Source: Verrucomicrobiota bacterium
GTDB taxonomy: Bacteria; Verrucomicrobiota; Verrucomicrobiae; Chthoniobacterales; UBA10450
Length of the DNA stretch: 7,785 nucleotides
Reading direction: 5' to 3'
Assembly: GCA_005887855.1 (NCBI GenBank)
Contig: VBQB01000172.1
Coordinates: 3,729-11,513 of the forward strand
A model generated the notes under the pieces. That model had not been told where the DNA came from. It did no database searches and saw only the letters and a list, made by a program, of their open reading frames with translations. The translations under genes were made by a program, and so were the position numbers. Below are positions 3,545 to 7,257 of the stretch, one piece after another. The first letter of the stretch is position 1, and the number at the start of each line of letters is the position of its first letter.

Positions 3545-4069
3545 TCAGCTGGTTTTCTGAGGCGCCCGCGCGCGGCTCACCAGCAAGCGCATCAAAAAAT
3601 AGACAATTAAAGCGGACGGCACCGCCAGGAAAAGCGAACCGACCAATGCTGGCCAGACGATTCGCGAAAAGAGGTGCCAGCTTAGATAATCGTGCAAGCC
3701 GAAATGCCCAAAGCGCACGCGATCCGGCGCGGAATGATGCAAAGTCCACCAACCAAGTTTGTATTCCGCTAAATAGATCGCCGGCATGGCGAAGATCAGT
3801 ACGTCATGCAACGTCACGGCGATTGCCGCCGCGATTTTATTACATCGACATATCCATGCGACGACGATGGAAAGCAGCGTTTTTAAGCTCCAGAGCGGAG
3901 TGAAACCGAAAAAGATTCCGATGGCAGAGCCGAGTGCAATCGAATGCGGGCTGTCGGCGATTGTCATCAGCGTCATGTGGTGCGCAATCAGCCAGCGCTT
4001 CAGCCGCGCCAGCGGCTGTGGCAAACGTGACTCGTAAACTGGCGTTGCCGCCGGCTGTGATTCCTGCAC
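3545..4069 (-). CDS. DUF2062 membrane protein
   Basis: A 174-aa inner-membrane protein of the DUF2062 family, whose function is not known. The family pattern is visible: a basic N-terminal helix (LARLKRWLIAHH), then DSPHSIALGSAIGIFFGFTP (39-58) leading into a membrane hairpin (about 43-100) that contains CRCNKIAAAIAV. A second pair of hydrophobic segments lies at about 136-165, and the tail is basic. The GTG start at 4069 is chosen because it keeps the conserved basic helix. The internal ATG at residue 32 would cut that helix away. It starts 14 nt after the DUF72 stop codon, so the two are probably co-transcribed. Some DUF2062 domains are fused to glycosyltransferases or found with envelope genes, but nothing here fixes a role. 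Confidence 0.8.
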   Translation of the reverse strand: MQESQPAATPVYESRLPQPLARLKRWLIAHHMTLMTIADSPHSIALGSAIGIFFGFTPLWSLKTLLSIVVAWICRCNKIAAAIAVTLHDVLIFAMPAIYLAEYKLGWWTLHHSAPDRVRFGHFGLHDYLSWHLFSRIVWPALVGSLFLAVPSALIVYFLMRLLVSRARAPQKTS

Positions 4070-4083
4070 GGCCGAAGCGTAAA

Positions 4084-5010
4084 CTAAAACAGCTCAAGTG
4101 TCTGGGGCGGAGCTGAGAACAATTGGCCGAGTGCCACGCGCAAACGAGCGGCCGCTCGCGGGGCGTAATCGAGATTGTTGTTATTGAAAATCACGTGTAG
4201 CTCGCGCGTCTTCCGGACCAGCTTCTTGCTTCGCTCCGCAACTTCCGCAATCTCCGTATCGCTGTAATCATAATCAAAGCGCGCCGCCACAGTTTTTCCG
4301 GAGAGATAGCCACGTGCGTTTCGTCCGTGAAGCCGGAGATAAGCAGTGCTTGGATTGGTGATTTCATCAAGATCAGAAGGCATGATGGTGAAATGTTCGG
4401 CCATTGGCCCGTCGACGTTGACAAAGATCGCATTGTGCTCCTTCAAGAAATCGATTGTCGGTTTTAACTGTTCACCGATCGCCCAGTTGCGATTTCGAAA
4501 TTCAATCGCCAGTCGATAATCGCCCAACATATCGATTAAATGCTCAAGCTCGCTCAGCTGATGCTTTCGTGGAGAAAATGCCGGCGAAAGCTGCAGAAGA
4601 AGCACGCCAAGTTTCCCGTCGGCACGCAAAATCGACATCGAGCGCAAAAAGACGCTGAGCATCGCTTCTTCCAGAGCCGGCGTGAGCTTTACTTTACCTT
4701 TTCCGTCGGTCCCCGCGCGCTGCTGCAAATCCGGCGGCAACAATTTCGCCGCTGTCGAATGAAACGAAAAGAGCTGGTGCAGTTTCACATCGAAGGTAAA
4801 CCGATCCGGCGTGGCGGCACACCAACGCTCAACCATTCGCAGATCAGGCACCGAATAAAACGTCGAATTCACCTCCACCATGTCAAAGTGTTGCGCGTAC
4901 CAACCGAGCCGCTCATCCGCGCGCATCCCTTTCGGATACCAATGTTGAACGAAACCCGGATCGGACCAGCTCGCAGTTCCGACGAGAATTTTGCCGCTTT
5001 TCGATTGCAC
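4084..5010 (-). CDS. DUF72 (YecE-like) protein
   Basis: Member of the DUF72/COG1801 family, a TIM-barrel-like fold of unknown biochemical function. From GTG 5010 it has 308 aa, normal for the family. Visible signatures are ILVGTASWSDPGF (8-20), VEVNSTFYSVP (46-55), LLLQLSPAFSP (137-147), AIEFRNRNW (168-176), YLRLHGR (224-230), the FDYDYSDTEI stretch (245-254) and HVIFNNNN (272-279). The start is uncertain. The frame stays open upstream to GTG 5121, but that leader (WRGRPRRQF and onward) is unlike the family. GTG 5028 is a further option, and no Shine-Dalgarno site separates them. The upstream end lies close to the displaced tRNA-fMet fragment, so the insertion there may have changed the original promoter or 5' leader. 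Confidence 0.88.
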   Translation of the reverse strand: MQSKSGKILVGTASWSDPGFVQHWYPKGMRADERLGWYAQHFDMVEVNSTFYSVPDLRMVERWCAATPDRFTFDVKLHQLFSFHSTAAKLLPPDLQQRAGTDGKGKVKLTPALEEAMLSVFLRSMSILRADGKLGVLLLQLSPAFSPRKHQLSELEHLIDMLGDYRLAIEFRNRNWAIGEQLKPTIDFLKEHNAIFVNVDGPMAEHFTIMPSDLDEITNPSTAYLRLHGRNARGYLSGKTVAARFDYDYSDTEIAEVAERSKKLVRKTRELHVIFNNNNLDYAPRAAARLRVALGQLFSAPPQTLELF

Positions 5011-5144
5011 CGAGCTTTTCTGAGGCACGCGAAACAGGAACCGCGAGTCGTGGAGAAAGCAAACAACTCTCCACTGGATGCAGGAGCGGAAGAATTGCCT
5101 GCGAGGGCGGCCCCGCCACACGCGGCGCTAAAGAACCACCGGAG

Positions 5145-5177
5145 AATTGGTTGCGGGGGCGGGATTTGAACCCGCGG
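5145..5177 (-). repeat. Displaced copy of tRNA-fMet 3' end (att-like)
   Basis: A 33-nt stretch identical at every position to 5470-5502, the CCA end, 3' acceptor strand and T arm of the nearby tRNA-fMet gene, plus 3 nt beyond CCA. The anticodon and D arms are absent here; the sequence instead continues into a palindrome at 5178-5193. It is in the same orientation as the tRNA. The geometry is that of a tRNA 3' end displaced by site-specific insertion, with the GIY-YIG gene between the two copies. A degenerate duplicate of the tRNA gene is the main alternative. Confidence 0.8.
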
Positions 5178-5193
5178 TCCCGCAGTTGCGGGA
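5178..5193. repeat. 16-nt palindrome next to displaced tRNA end
   Basis: TCCCGCA (5178-5184) and TGCGGGA (5187-5193) pair perfectly around a 2-nt centre. The palindrome fills the whole space between the GIY-YIG stop codon (5194-5196) and the T-stem edge of the displaced tRNA-fMet fragment. It could be a transcription terminator stem, a recombinase or nuclease recognition site, or a folded DNA end. No T tract follows on the minus strand, which weakens the terminator reading. Confidence 0.6.
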
Positions 5194-5457
5194 TTATGTG
5201 CCTATTCGTCCTATACCGGTCAACTGGTAAAATCCCGCGCCTCCTTTTTGCCTCTTAATAAGAAGTTCCAGTTTCCGAGCCTCCGAGAGATTCAGCGATT
5301 CGCTCTGCCAAACTAATTTCCAAGGCCCTTTACCTTTGGTCCATCTGGAGAAGCCGGAATTATGCTGCTCGATTCTACGTGCAACATCGTCGGATAGCCC
5401 AACGTAAAACTTTCCTTCGCGATTTTGGAGGACGTAGACGCGATAAGTTGCCGGCAT
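5194..5457 (-). CDS. Small GIY-YIG nuclease-domain protein
   Basis: Single-domain GIY-YIG protein of 87 aa, resembling the UvrC N-terminal nuclease and the YhbQ/UPF0213-type small proteins. The catalytic framework looks intact: Tyr8 in YRVYVLQN, Tyr18 in FYVG, Arg27/Arg28, His32-Asn33 in the EQHNSG segment, and Glu64 in SEARKLELLIKRQKGG. There is no DNA-binding domain such as homing endonucleases carry. The ATG lies 15 nt after the CCA of tRNA-fMet with no Shine-Dalgarno site, so the message is probably made with the tRNA precursor and freed by tRNA 3' processing. The stop codon abuts a palindrome and a copy of the tRNA 3' end. Related small GIY-YIG genes often lie near tRNAs in environmental bacteria. 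Cellular function is unknown; a role in the mobility of this unit is inference. Confidence 0.85.
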   Translation of the reverse strand: MPATYRVYVLQNREGKFYVGLSDDVARRIEQHNSGFSRWTKGKGPWKLVWQSESLNLSEARKLELLIKRQKGGAGFYQLTGIGRIGT

Positions 5458-5469
5458 GCGGCACGAAGA

Positions 5470-5502
5470 AATTGGTTGCGGGGGCGGGATTTGAACCCGC
5501 GG
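5470..5502 (-). repeat. 33-bp direct repeat copy inside tRNA-fMet
   Basis: The partner of 5145-5177, identical over all 33 positions. It includes the encoded CCA and T arm of the functional tRNA-fMet gene plus 3 nt of downstream flank. The two copies are 325 bp apart start to start and bracket the GIY-YIG gene and its palindrome. Confidence 0.85.
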
Positions 5503-5549
5503 CCTTCAGGTTATGAGCCTGACGAGCTACCAGGCTGCTCCACCCCGCG
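5473..5549 (-). tRNA. Initiator tRNA-fMet (CAU)
   Basis: A 77-nt cloverleaf with CAU anticodon and encoded CCA. Initiator features are present: the unpaired C1:A72 end of the acceptor stem (CGCGGGG against CCCCGCA) and the purine-pyrimidine A11:U24 pair in the D stem (GAGC with GCTC). The T loop TTCAAAT and the D loop AGCCTGGTA match bacterial initiators. The anticodon stem is TCAGG/CCTGA, so the usual three G:C pairs at 29-31:39-41 read A-U, G-C, G-C. The gene is followed 15 nt downstream by a GIY-YIG ORF, and its 3' end is duplicated at 5145-5177. Confidence 0.95.
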
Positions 5550-5555
5550 TCTTTA

Positions 5556-5583
5556 CTTATGTCGACGAAGACGGCGAAAGCAA
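5556..5583 (-). promoter_or_regulatory. Candidate promoter of tRNA-fMet
   Basis: On the minus strand, TTGCTT (5583-5578) and CATAAG (5561-5556) resemble -35 and -10 boxes with a 16-nt spacer. The -10 box ends 6 nt before the tRNA 5' end, so the precursor leader would be very short. The match is partial (4 of 6 at -10) and untested. Confidence 0.3.
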
Positions 5584-5591
5584 ATTGAAAA

Positions 5592-5828
5592 GTGATTGTC
5601 GGCGAGGATGATCTTAGAAATCCAAAGATTGGCTCCAGCGGTAGGAATTCGCGAACCTACGGAACCGCCTCTGATCGAGAGGCGGTTACGCATGATGACG
5701 CACATCCTGACGCACTCGATTTAAGCCGGTTGGTTGCGGCGTGGCCACTGCTTCCGGCGACGCTGCGATCAGCGGTGCTGGAAATTGTACGATCGTTTGT
5801 CGCAGAGATGGAAGGGAGCCGACCATGA
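5592..5828 (+). CDS. Small ORF, possible integrase-tail remnant
   Basis: A 78-codon ORF from GTG 5592 to TGA 5828. Its first part (residues about 13-25) is only the antisense reading of a displaced tRNA-Asn 3' end, so a real product more likely lies in the second half. From residue 38 the sequence DALDLSRLVAAWPLLPA, followed by a helix ending SFVAEMEGSRP, looks like genuine coding sequence. The Trp-x-x-LP motif with flanking helices recalls short C-terminal tails or trailing ORFs of tyrosine recombinases in Verrucomicrobia and Planctomycetes; this is from memory and uncertain. ATG 5825 overlaps the stop as ATGA and opens a 22-aa ORF to 5893 (MTPAELLQQILRGS...), which suggests translational coupling or the broken start of another gene. 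No recombinase catalytic domain is present. Confidence 0.35.
   Translation: MIVGEDDLRNPKIGSSGRNSRTYGTASDREAVTHDDAHPDALDLSRLVAAWPLLPATLRSAVLEIVRSFVAEMEGSRP
5628..5662 (-). repeat. Displaced, altered copy of tRNA-Asn 3' end (att-like)
   Basis: The first 19 nt (5628-5646, attggctccagcggtagga) match 6924-6942 exactly: the CCA, discriminator, 3' acceptor strand and part of the T arm of the tRNA-Asn gene. Both T-stem strands (GTAGG, CCTAC) are kept, but the loop is 10 nt, TTCGCGAATT, instead of the 7-nt TTCGAAT. The anticodon and D arms are missing, and a hairpin at 5663-5687 follows directly. It cannot be a functional tRNA. Confidence 0.7.
5663..5687. repeat. 10-bp perfect hairpin next to displaced tRNA-Asn end
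   Basis: AACCGCCTCT (5663-5672) and AGAGGCGGTT (5678-5687) form a perfect 10-bp stem with loop GATCG. It begins directly at the T-stem edge of the displaced tRNA-Asn fragment. The palindrome at 5178-5193 holds the same position next to the displaced tRNA-fMet fragment. Confidence 0.65.
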
Positions 5829-5981
5829 CGCCAGCGGAGCTGTTGCAGCAAATTCTTCGCGGATCTACACCACCTTGCGTAGTGCGAAAATAATAGGCTT
5901 ACTAAAAATTGCCCGGGTGATCAAACTCGACCAAAGGTAGGCCTCTCAAACCTAAAATCGCTTTGGGCTATTGCTATCGCT

Positions 5982-6518
5982 TTGGTCGCCACCGGTCGGC
6001 TTGTCTCCGCAAATCTCATTGTTAATCCCGGCTTTGAGACCGGCGACTTCACCGGCTGGACAACCACACCCGCTGCGAGCGGAAGCATTTTTGCCGTCGT
6101 CCCCACCTTCGCGCACTCCGGCACCTACGCCGTCTCCTTCGGCGCGTTCGGCGCGGATTTGGACGCCATCAGTCAGACCTTCGTGACGACACCCGGCACT
6201 CTGTACGACCTAAGCTTTTGGCTAACCAACAGTTTTGATAACAACGAGTTTCGGGTAACCTTTGGCGGTGTTACCGTGTTGGACCTCATTGATTCGGGCG
6301 ACCTACCTTATACGCAATTCACCTTTACCGGCCTTGCAACGGGCAGCTCAATGACCTTGGAGTTCGCCGGACGAAACGCCCCCAGCTTCTCTTATCTCGA
6401 CGACGTTTCGGTGACGCCCAGCTCCGGCGTCCCCGATTCCGGTTCCACCGCAATGCTGTTCGGGGTAAGTGCTGCTGCCCTGCTTCTGGCCAGGATGCGT
6501 TTCCGCCGAATCGCCTAG
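5982..6518 (+). CDS. VPDSG-CTERM exported protein
   Basis: Predicted secreted protein with a C-terminal sorting tail: VPDSG (residues 150-154), a short hydrophobic span (about 157-170) and a basic end (RMRFRR). This is the VPDSG variant of PEP-CTERM known from Verrucomicrobia, thought to be cut by an exosortase and linked to extracellular polymer. The body begins NLIVNPGFETGDFTGW (11-26), usual for beta-rich, carbohydrate-binding-like PEP-CTERM proteins, and ends YLDDVSVTP. The start is problematic. The only conventional codon in frame is TTG 5982, which cuts into the signal peptide. The frame is open back to 5883, and codons from about 5946 read SNLKSLWAIAIALVATGRLVSA, a complete signal peptide without ATG, GTG or TTG at its head. 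AAGGTAGG at 5934-5941 would suit a start near 5946. The start may be mutated or non-canonical. No exosortase gene is in the window. Confidence 0.75.
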   Translation: MVATGRLVSANLIVNPGFETGDFTGWTTTPAASGSIFAVVPTFAHSGTYAVSFGAFGADLDAISQTFVTTPGTLYDLSFWLTNSFDNNEFRVTFGGVTVLDLIDSGDLPYTQFTFTGLATGSSMTLEFAGRNAPSFSYLDDVSVTPSSGVPDSGSTAMLFGVSAAALLLARMRFRRIA

Positions 6519-6580
6519 CGGCCAGCTCGTTGGCATCAGAAATAGTGGCGAACTAATCACTTATCACCATTCACTTCCGC

Positions 6581-6697
6581 TCAACGCAGCATCGGCTGCT
6601 CCATATTCGCGAGCGCATAAGCGAAGACCGCGACGACAGCGGAGTTCTCGGCCAGTTCTTTGGGCACGATTTTATCGAGAGTGTCGGCCGCCTTGTC
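6581..6697 (-). pseudogene. 3' end of an M28-like peptidase gene
   Basis: An in-frame stretch of 38 codons plus TGA reads DKAADTLDKIVPKELAENSA, then a helix VVAVFAYALANMEQPMLR. The DTLDKI segment and the final helix closing in a Pro-x-x-Arg end resemble the C-terminus of bacterial M28 zinc aminopeptidases, where DTLDKID lies just after the last metal-binding His. No start codon, signal peptide or other peptidase motif lies upstream. The frame instead runs into the GIY-YIG gene in another phase (junction about 6690-6705). It is therefore a gene remnant, probably truncated by the rearrangement that placed the GIY-YIG gene here. Family assignment is by eye. Confidence 0.55.
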
Positions 6698-6917
6698 CCG
6701 ACTTGAGCGCGTTTTCGCGAGCGAGAGCTGCTGATCGAGACGACAACATCTCCAAATAGATCACCTTCCACGAGCCGCGAAAGCGTTTCGTCGTTCTTGT
6801 GAGCTTGTGCATTGGGTCGTTGTCCTGAATAGACCTGCGTTTAAGATCATCAGTTTGCCCGATGTAGAGCTTGCCATCGGGATTTTGCAGAACGCAAAAA
6901 CGAAGAAGCTCATCCAT
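6672..6917 (-). CDS. Decayed GIY-YIG domain protein
   Basis: An 81-aa GIY-YIG homologue that lines up residue for residue with the intact copy at 5194-5457 over the first 34 positions: VLQNPDGKLYIGQTDDLKRR here, VLQNREGKFYVGLSDDVARR there. Tyr18, Gly20, Arg27 and Glu68 remain, but the first catalytic-motif Tyr is Cys8, and the His of the usual His-Asn pair is Asp32. The typical C-terminal helix after KSGQG is lost; the frame ends GRHSR where it meets the peptidase remnant. The ATG is 8 nt after the CCA of tRNA-Asn, with only ATTTTTAA between and no Shine-Dalgarno site. It is probably inactive or decaying, though the open frame does not exclude expression. Confidence 0.65.
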   Translation of the reverse strand: MDELLRFCVLQNPDGKLYIGQTDDLKRRSIQDNDPMHKLTRTTKRFRGSWKVIYLEMLSSRSAALARENALKSGQGGRHSR

Positions 6918-6923
6918 TTAAAA

Positions 6924-6942
6924 ATTGGCTCCAGCGGTAGGA
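6924..6942 (-). repeat. 19-bp direct repeat copy inside tRNA-Asn
   Basis: Partner of 5628-5646, identical over 19 nt. It comprises the CCA, discriminator base, acceptor 3' strand and start of the T stem of the tRNA-Asn gene, plus 2 nt of flank. The copies are 1296 bp apart start to start and bracket the decayed GIY-YIG gene, the peptidase remnant and the VPDSG-CTERM gene. Confidence 0.7.
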
Positions 6943-7000
6943 TTCGAACCTACGACCAATCGGTTAACAGCCGACCGCTCTACCACTGAGCTACGCTGGA
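6926..7000 (-). tRNA. tRNA-Asn (GUU)
   Basis: A 75-nt cloverleaf with encoded CCA: acceptor TCCAGCG/CGCTGGA, discriminator G, D stem GCTC/GAGC with loop AGTGGTA, anticodon arm GTCGG-CTGTTAA-CCGAT, T arm GTAGG-TTCGAAT-CCTAC. The anticodon GUU reads Asn codons. All stems pair apart from one G-U at the base of the anticodon stem, so the gene looks functional despite the insertion directly downstream. No convincing promoter was seen at 7001-7080. Confidence 0.95.
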
Positions 7001-7257
7001 TCGTTTTCGCGCTCGATTGAGAGCCGTACATGTTGCCCACACGCCGTTGCGCGGCAAGTCGTACCTTAATCCAATCAAAATCGATATGGAAAACAAAAGC
7101 CGTGTCTTGATTATTCAGATCGCTTGGCTCAGTTCTGGCGCAATATCAGTATGACCCGGCCAGATCGCACGCGTACGGCGAATACAAATAAACCTTTCGA
7201 ATCGAACCGCTGTCTTCCCTAAGATCAACCGATGGCCATTCGCGCGCTCTTATCGTC
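7001..7257. other. Intergenic stretch with no clear gene
   Basis: This stretch lies between tRNA-Asn (leftward) and the membrane protein (rightward) and should hold divergent promoters. I see no convincing -35/-10 pair, operator, repeat or small ORF. ATG 7232 may belong to the downstream gene (see that entry). Confidence 0.4.

Follow-up and report, generated by a model that had tools for sequence, protein, structure and literature searches.

A single-gene GIY-YIG unit behind tRNA-fMet in Verrucomicrobiota: a candidate minimal mobile element

RESULTS

Layout of the tRNA-fMet locus

The window, that is, the whole stretch of 7,785 nucleotides analyzed here, carries on its minus strand, in this order, a tRNA-fMet gene, a small GIY-YIG nuclease gene, a hairpin, a displaced copy of the tRNA 3' end, and a DUF72 gene. 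A second GIY-YIG open reading frame (ORF) lies behind a tRNA-Asn gene. The features discussed below are as follows.

4084-5121, minus strand: DUF72 gene, downstream neighbor of the fMet unit
5145-5177 and 5470-5502, minus strand: 33-bp perfect direct repeat, copies 325 bp apart
5145-5177, minus strand: second repeat copy, the displaced tRNA-fMet 3' end
5178-5193, no strand assigned: terminal hairpin TCCCGC-AACT-GCGGGA, in place of tRNA positions 39 to 47
5194-5202, minus strand: anticodon-like GGCACATAA, counterpart of the fMet anticodon-arm stretch GGCTCATAA
5194-5457, minus strand: GIY-YIG nuclease gene, 87 amino acids (ORF and Pfam)
5470-5502, minus strand: first repeat copy, comprising T-arm, acceptor 3' strand, CCA, and 3 nt beyond
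5473-5549, minus strand: intact tRNA-fMet, anticodon CAT, CCA encoded (ARAGORN and Rfam)
5631-5690, minus strand: degenerate tRNA-Asn 3' end with the long-stemmed hairpin CCGCCTCTCGATCAGAGGCGG
6672-6917, minus strand: second GIY-YIG ORF, family 2, with a 3' end shorter than in relatives, 8 nt behind tRNA-Asn (ORF and Pfam)
6926-7000, minus strand: tRNA-Asn (ARAGORN and Rfam)

An earlier note on this DNA had described a perfect direct repeat of 33 bp, one copy being the 3' end of tRNA-fMet, and 325 bp from repeat to repeat holding only an 87-amino-acid GIY-YIG gene and a palindrome. Both descriptions were borne out, the latter by ORF analysis, Pfam, and shuffling. ARAGORN reports the gene at 5473-5549 as the sole tRNA-Met (cat), and Rfam concurs at 65.1 bits. 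The displaced copy comprises tRNA positions 48 to 77 plus 3 nt, and nothing other than the GIY-YIG gene and the hairpin separates it from the intact tRNA. The palindrome occurs once in the window, against a mean expectation of 0.01 from shuffling.

The stop codon of the nuclease gene is the TAA of the anticodon-like GGCACATAA, which stands at the right end of the element where tRNA-fMet has GGCTCATAA. The displaced piece is therefore a pseudo-tRNA half, in which the hairpin substitutes for the 3' strand of the anticodon stem and the variable loop. Folded as single-stranded DNA, this piece forms the hairpin and a T-arm, just somewhat above shuffled sequences (z = -1.5). By analogy with the empty-site comparison in a relative described below, the 3' part of the window's tRNA-fMet probably belongs to the inserted unit as well.

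Between the repeats, which are 325 bp apart, there is one GIY-YIG ORF and no integrase gene; in relatives, too, the spacing is commonly near 320 bp per unit. No intron family was found in an Rfam scan of window positions 4900 to 7100 at E values up to 1, and the tRNA is uninterrupted. An intron or other known RNA element was rejected as an explanation, given that only tRNAs exceeded the gathering score in the scan; subthreshold matches on the displaced piece were to a viral tRNA-like element (E = 0.65) and to a tmRNA end (E = 0.00021).

The GIY-YIG protein

The 87-amino-acid protein matches the Pfam GIY-YIG family PF01541 (E = 2.5e-12). Pfam matches on the window ORF were to GIY-YIG and T5orf172, with no transposase and no HUH tyrosine transposase among them, and NCBIfam provides no name for the protein. 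In an alignment of 40 sequences, Y8, Y18, and E64 are invariant and R28 is nearly so; we take these four to be the catalytic residues of the nuclease. The AlphaFold model is confident (pLDDT 91.3, pTM 0.82). Closest by sequence among solved structures are the UPF0213 proteins 1ZG2 (E = 6.6e-11) and 1YWL (E = 4.9e-6), which also appear at ranks 1 and 4 in Foldseek, where one match alone had an E value below 0.001. Slx1, a structure-specific nuclease, is a further fold neighbor. Intact GIY-YIG genes are under purifying selection, with dN/dS values of 0.086 to 0.301 in the 12 computable of 14 chosen pairs of relatives (the 2 saturated pairs were excluded).

Of 120 relatives listed by a protein search at metagenome scale, 54 have GS as their last two residues, the ending expected from GGCTCATAA; of 70 listed members of the second family, 45 end in GC, as expected from GGCTGTTAA of the tRNA-Asn anticodon arm. 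Peptide motifs of tRNA ends that we chose ourselves were matched by 17 of the 190 listed proteins of both families.

Recurrence of the layout and coupling of hairpin and protein

Relatives were collected in a scan of bacteria and archaea with one genome per species, which yielded 78 loci from the best 80 of 82 confirmed stretches (here L and G numbers are our handles for loci and genomes); nearly all host genomes are metagenome-assembled genomes (MAGs). A tRNA was counted if its end lay between 900 bp before and 40 bp after the start of the match. By this measure, a same-strand tRNA-Met stands upstream of the GIY-YIG relative in 53 of the 78 loci; 52 of the 53 are of the initiator type (GGAGCAG test) and 44 end within 200 bp. 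The remaining loci have a tRNA-Met downstream (5), another tRNA (3), or no tRNA within these limits (17), and 9 of the last 17 show a T-arm motif upstream. Neither tRNA nor T-arm motif was found nearby in 8 of the 78 loci, 5 of which are patescibacterial with a different layout, and one of which (L065) has an adjoining tRNA-Pro. A hairpin follows the GIY-YIG match within 75 nt in 53 of all 78 loci and in 46 of the 53 tRNA-Met loci, and the anticodon-like xCATAAT/TGTTAAT stretch is present in 56 of the 78. The hosts are mostly Verrucomicrobiota, with a few Lentisphaerota, Kiritimatiellota, and Planctomycetota, an Armatimonadota MAG, Patescibacteria, and others; Brevifollis gellanilyticus and Verrucomicrobium sp. 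BvORR034 are among those with relatives of the unit. Thus, the arrangement of tRNA, GIY-YIG gene, and repeated 3' end, a search for which the earlier note had proposed, recurs across Verrucomicrobiota and some other phyla.

The T-stem of the remnant equals that of the host's own tRNA in 35 of 44 loci and differs in 9, with 14 T-stem sequences overall, in a table that favors close copies by construction, as it covers loci with a detected copy at no more than 5 mismatches in 25 (two N-masked rows were excluded). In L059 and in most copies of L010, the differing T-stem is itself fully paired. No phage or plasmid record covering 80% of the query was found, and among viral contigs there were four distant matches (30 to 36% identity), none with a tRNA nearby.

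The hairpin varies together with the protein. Among 58 units with an intact hairpin (16 of the 74 rows have none), the Q[G/R]RG protein motif is present in 9 of 9 units with a TCCGGC hairpin and in 0 of 49 units with a TCCCGC hairpin, 47 of which are of the QKGG kind and 2 frameshifted at this place. The 16 rows outside this count include L012, which has the GRG motif and a decayed hairpin, and L164, frameshifted at the motif. On the element tree the TCCGGC type needs two changes, and one origin is possible. The tandem array of L004 holds one unit each of KGG/TCCCGC and GRG/TCCGGC. The best reading of these sequence patterns is that each nuclease would be paired with its own hairpin. The CATAA-hairpin end pattern has 21 matches across 83 genomes, with no genome having more than 2, and the reversed pattern has none; 17 matches are next to tRNA-fMet and the other 4 are not, by which dispersed REP-like hairpins are ruled out for this family.

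Unoccupied sites, trees, arrays, and decay

The search for empty sites that the earlier note had also suggested revealed relatives free of the unit at the same site. Two units (573 bp) are present in L003 and none in L196, the flanks being 98.1% identical over 1,499 bp and 97.5% identical over 569 bp. The 573-bp insert lies between CTGAAGG and CCGCGGGTTC, with the insertion point falling within the shared T-arm/acceptor block, and the two-unit array differs from the empty site as one block. In the family of G003, the unit was found (at E = 1e-20) in 18 of 83 genomes, many of them incomplete MAGs, and a tRNA-fMet match of some strength in 73. At the fMet-DUF72 site of the window, 6 loci are occupied and 14 have no detectable unit, a GIY-YIG match being absent from 700 bp and a hairpin of this kind from 500 bp. 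One of the latter (L194 in G051), otherwise unit-free, has a T-arm-like GGTTCAAAT 146 nt after tRNA-fMet, perhaps the remnant of a lost unit.

The flank tree of the fMet-DUF72 site, from which duplicate loci of the same contigs and the unoccupied L185 (alignment too short) were left out, implies at least 4 changes of occupancy, 3 of them forced by well-supported branches. In the element tree, built without 7 of the 74 proteins that were frameshifted, fragmentary, or distant, elements mostly group by host lineage. This tree joins the window with L001 (100/94), and the flank tree places it with L059 and L009 (98/97). Both element types, TCCCGC/KGG and TCCGGC/GRG, occupy this orthologous site in relatives. 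Judged from these comparisons, the occupancy pattern and the conflict between the trees are what repeated insertion would give; precise loss via the direct repeats may also have contributed.

Repeated unit copies occur in L003, L004, L008, L027, L038, and others. L010 has three gene-less 60-bp repeats of hairpin and T-arm, and L170 and L193 keep both unit ends with most of the gene gone. These truncated or GIY-less copies look like the decay of a parasite.

Other tRNA targets and the tRNA-Asn unit of the window

As paralogs we took lower-scoring GIY-YIG genes of these genomes, in 40 regions picked on score and genome irrespective of context. A same-strand tRNA lies within about 400 bp in 22 of them, representing many isotypes, and 18 have no nearby tRNA; every tRNA listed near paralogs is on the strand of the GIY-YIG gene. 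A stretch matching the neighboring tRNA was detected in 15 of the 22 regions, a few of these stretches being so short that they may be due to chance. Visual inspection clearly shows a partial tRNA with a hairpin in 10 of the 22, at Asn (L113, L114, L117), Ala (L119), Ser (L120), Lys (L118), His (L149), Met (L115, L136), and Gln (L133), and likewise at tRNA-Pro in L063 and L065. Control loci, comprising 15 cold-shock and 30 ParE genes searched in the same 25 genomes, have a tRNA within 400 bp in 0 of 45 cases and two anywhere in the roughly 3 kb fetched. A relative of the window gene itself (L023) lies behind tRNA-Asn, with a copy of the Asn 3' end and a hairpin. In a further, 5'-type layout (L013, L033, L037, L063, L065, L117, L119, L149, and L202), the hairpin-bearing 5' part of a tRNA comes first and the intact tRNA after it, with or without a GIY-YIG gene. 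The hairpin, its covariation with the protein, the other tRNA isotypes, and the 5'-type arrangement go beyond the earlier note, as do the anticodon-like stretch at the stop codon, the second GIY-YIG ORF, and the degenerate tRNA-Asn 3' end.

The tRNA-Asn of the window was apparently the target of a second, degraded unit. L218 provides an intact family-2 unit behind tRNA-Asn, with the hairpin TCCGCC-TCA-GGCGGA, and by comparison with it the degenerate tRNA-Asn 3' end at 5631-5690 is possibly the right end of a family-2 unit. Roughly 1 kb separates this 3' end from the truncated GIY-YIG gene of the Asn unit, with the gene for a VPDSG-CTERM protein (5982-6518) in between. L268, a relative of L218, has the fMet-Asn pair without the unit; the downstream flank of L218 is unmatched there, and this Asn empty site therefore rests on one side only.

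DISCUSSION

Since relatives lack the unit and similar units are found at other tRNA genes, it looks like a minimal, little-known mobile element. We consider it likely, with a probability of about two in three, that the stretch in the window represents a member of a family of minimal, single-gene mobile elements that target tRNA genes. Comparison among genomes supplies the architecture, presence and absence at orthologous sites, arrays, internally deleted derivatives, and other isotypes, as well as purifying selection, disagreement between element and locus trees, and the coupling of hairpin and protein; it is the mobility of the unit that we infer from sequence. The surmise of the earlier note, a tiny tRNA-targeting unit with a GIY-YIG nuclease as its only protein, is thus supported both by the unit-free relatives and by the recurring layout. 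Either of the two mechanisms named in that note, mobility in trans or repair provoked by the nuclease with the tRNA as homology, may apply.

The element would consist of the nuclease gene and, as its right end, the short TCC...GGA hairpin. Insertion would take place between the anticodon arm and the T-arm of the tRNA gene, with the element supplying its own version of the tRNA 3' half and the native 3' half being displaced downstream, behind the hairpin. As the element would bring its own 3' half, the tRNA would stay whole. It is tempting to speculate that the nuclease recognizes its own hairpin and a similar stem-loop in the tRNA gene, probably in single-stranded or cruciform form, and cuts there. 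Because the unit has no recombinase or transposase gene, we invoke host recombination or replication, which might use tRNA homology to copy it into the tRNA gene that has been cut, in a homing-like manner. Classical homing accords poorly with the intact left tRNA, which retains the tRNA sequence: a classical homing nuclease directed at the tRNA gene would therefore cut its own site.

Integrases provide the main alternative, since integrase islands use tRNA-fMet and one tyrosine-recombinase transposon is known to have a GIY-YIG accessory. On this view the unit would have no mobility of its own: as a minimal satellite of tyrosine-integrase islands, it would depend on integrases that attach at the same tRNA-fMet and act on it in trans, with the GIY-YIG gene as cargo or accessory. 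In L034, L036, L040, and L048, a Phage_integrase gene indeed stands beside a displaced fMet 3' half adjoining a GIY-YIG unit, and in the transposon Tsy, the GIY-YIG nuclease is a helpful, non-essential accessory (PMC10293859). However, the unit of about 325 bp has no integrase, the hairpin that replaces positions 39 to 47 precedes the native half, which a simple crossover in the anticodon loop would not give, a like plan is seen at several tRNAs with different hairpins, and hairpin and protein covary. We therefore regard a satellite origin as unlikely.

It is improbable, in our estimate, that the locus goes back to an ancient partial duplication of the tRNA, passed on vertically together with a GIY-YIG gene that became domesticated, in which gene conversion keeps the 3' ends identical and empty sites are losses. 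Such a history would agree with the grouping of elements largely by host lineage, with direct repeats that permit precise loss, and with the identity of remnant and tRNA in 35 of 44 loci, but it fits poorly with an element present in only 18 of the 83 genomes of one family (at the above cutoff and with many incomplete MAGs), with two element types at the same orthologous site and conflicting element and flank trees, and with units at other isotypes that carry copies of those tRNAs. A related proposal, considered in the earlier note, that the displaced copy is what remains of a full second tRNA-fMet gene present in the ancestor, was not borne out: the unoccupied relatives compared have one fMet there and no second copy. 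We give very little credence to a site-occupying defense or addiction module that does not spread by itself, in which the nuclease and a hairpin decoy would shield an essential tRNA gene from integrases and phages. The anticodon/variable region of tRNA genes is used by one class of integrases, and the hairpin sits in this region of a tRNA that is an integrase target; yet integrase islands lie beside units with an open gene and a hairpin (L036, L040), so that protection would be incomplete, and the truncated or GIY-less copies of L010, L170, and L193 resemble parasite decay.

Off-target insertions outside tRNA genes, with a 5'-truncated tRNA as the left end (L025, L026, L034, L036, L040, and L048), were also considered and rejected. 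For the last four, which have a Phage_integrase gene upstream, classical islands that took the 5' half are the better interpretation; an IS66 transposase is encoded upstream in L025, and L026 is near a contig edge. The idea of a left end of the unit at GGCTCATAA was dropped together with this reading.

No known family tested fits the tRNA-targeted element fully. The UPF0213 proteins (1ZG2, 1YWL) are nearest by sequence and fold and similar in size, with a GIY-YIG domain, and to our knowledge no tRNA or hairpin context has been described for them. Ssn proteins are site-specific single-strand nucleases of Neisseria, associated with NTS hairpin repeats; the dRS3/NTS palindromes are of the TCCCGC...GCGGGA type and have many dispersed genomic copies. 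By analogy, these nucleases may be the closest functional parallel, since in both cases a small GIY-YIG nuclease goes with short palindromes of this type, here its putative targets. Unlike in Neisseria, the hairpin end hardly occurs outside the element (the 21 matches mentioned above, at most 2 per genome); it is built into a tRNA half, and the unit behaves like an insertion. The T4 seg genes encode free-standing GIY-YIG endonucleases that perform intronless homing. They share with the unit a stand-alone nuclease gene beside its presumed target and a spread that could proceed by break repair, and homing endonuclease elements in general share the empty allele in close relatives (L196 versus L003, and the 14 unit-free orthologous sites); in contrast to intronless homing, the tRNA gene is intact here, there is a hairpin end, and a replacement tRNA half is supplied. 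A group I intron with a homing endonuclease in tRNA-fMet differs in that no intron RNA is present here and the tRNA is uninterrupted.

Tyrosine-integrase islands, which are found at the same tRNA-fMet, likewise restore the tRNA 3' end and leave a displaced copy at the far end, whereas the unit has no integrase, measures about 0.3 kb, carries a hairpin in the displaced tRNA, and also occurs in the 5'-type layout. In REP/RAYT and IS200/IS605 systems, short hairpins are recognized by a dedicated nuclease, a tyrosine HUH enzyme. The plan of hairpin and nuclease is similar, and the GIY-less derivatives resemble non-autonomous copies, but the nuclease here is of the GIY-YIG type. Tsy also encodes a GIY-YIG nuclease, the removal of which impairs transposition, but it depends on a tyrosine recombinase and TnsF, with the nuclease being non-essential, and targets comM (PMC10293859).

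More broadly, and at somewhat less than even odds, these units might constitute a previously unrecognized class of mobile elements that are autonomous and rank among the smallest with a single gene, their entire mobility machinery being a GIY-YIG nuclease and the hairpin matched to it. Lineages of this class would have specialized on different tRNA genes, carrying or capturing the host's own tRNA sequence. In Verrucomicrobiota, Planctomycetota, Lentisphaerota, Patescibacteria, and other phyla, they would have left tRNA pseudo-halves in which a hairpin replaces the anticodon arm. In the literature searched, outside of which much subscription literature lies, no description of such units was found. 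If this is true, a nuclease of fewer than 90 residues moves DNA without recombinase or transposase by rebuilding the tRNA gene that it invades. A minimal mechanism would thereby join the known modes of DNA mobility, and it could account for many unassigned small GIY-YIG genes and tRNA fragments with hairpins. The units would, in addition, offer a system for studying nuclease-hairpin coevolution, with two natural specificities (KGG/TCCCGC and GRG/TCCGGC) in one tandem array.

Several loci show further variations of hairpins and flanks. In L019, L053, L058, and L068, a second similar hairpin interrupts the T-loop of the displaced tRNA half, 3' of the GIY-YIG gene. A Patescibacteria MAG (L066, positions 3682 to 4280) has an array of six TCCCGC...GCGGGA hairpins with partial tRNA-Met copies. 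In the patescibacterial loci L072 to L076, inverted sequences of the TCCCGTTARAGA / TCTYTAACGGGA kind flank the GIY-YIG genes and resemble the terminal inverted repeats of a one-gene element that has no tRNA.
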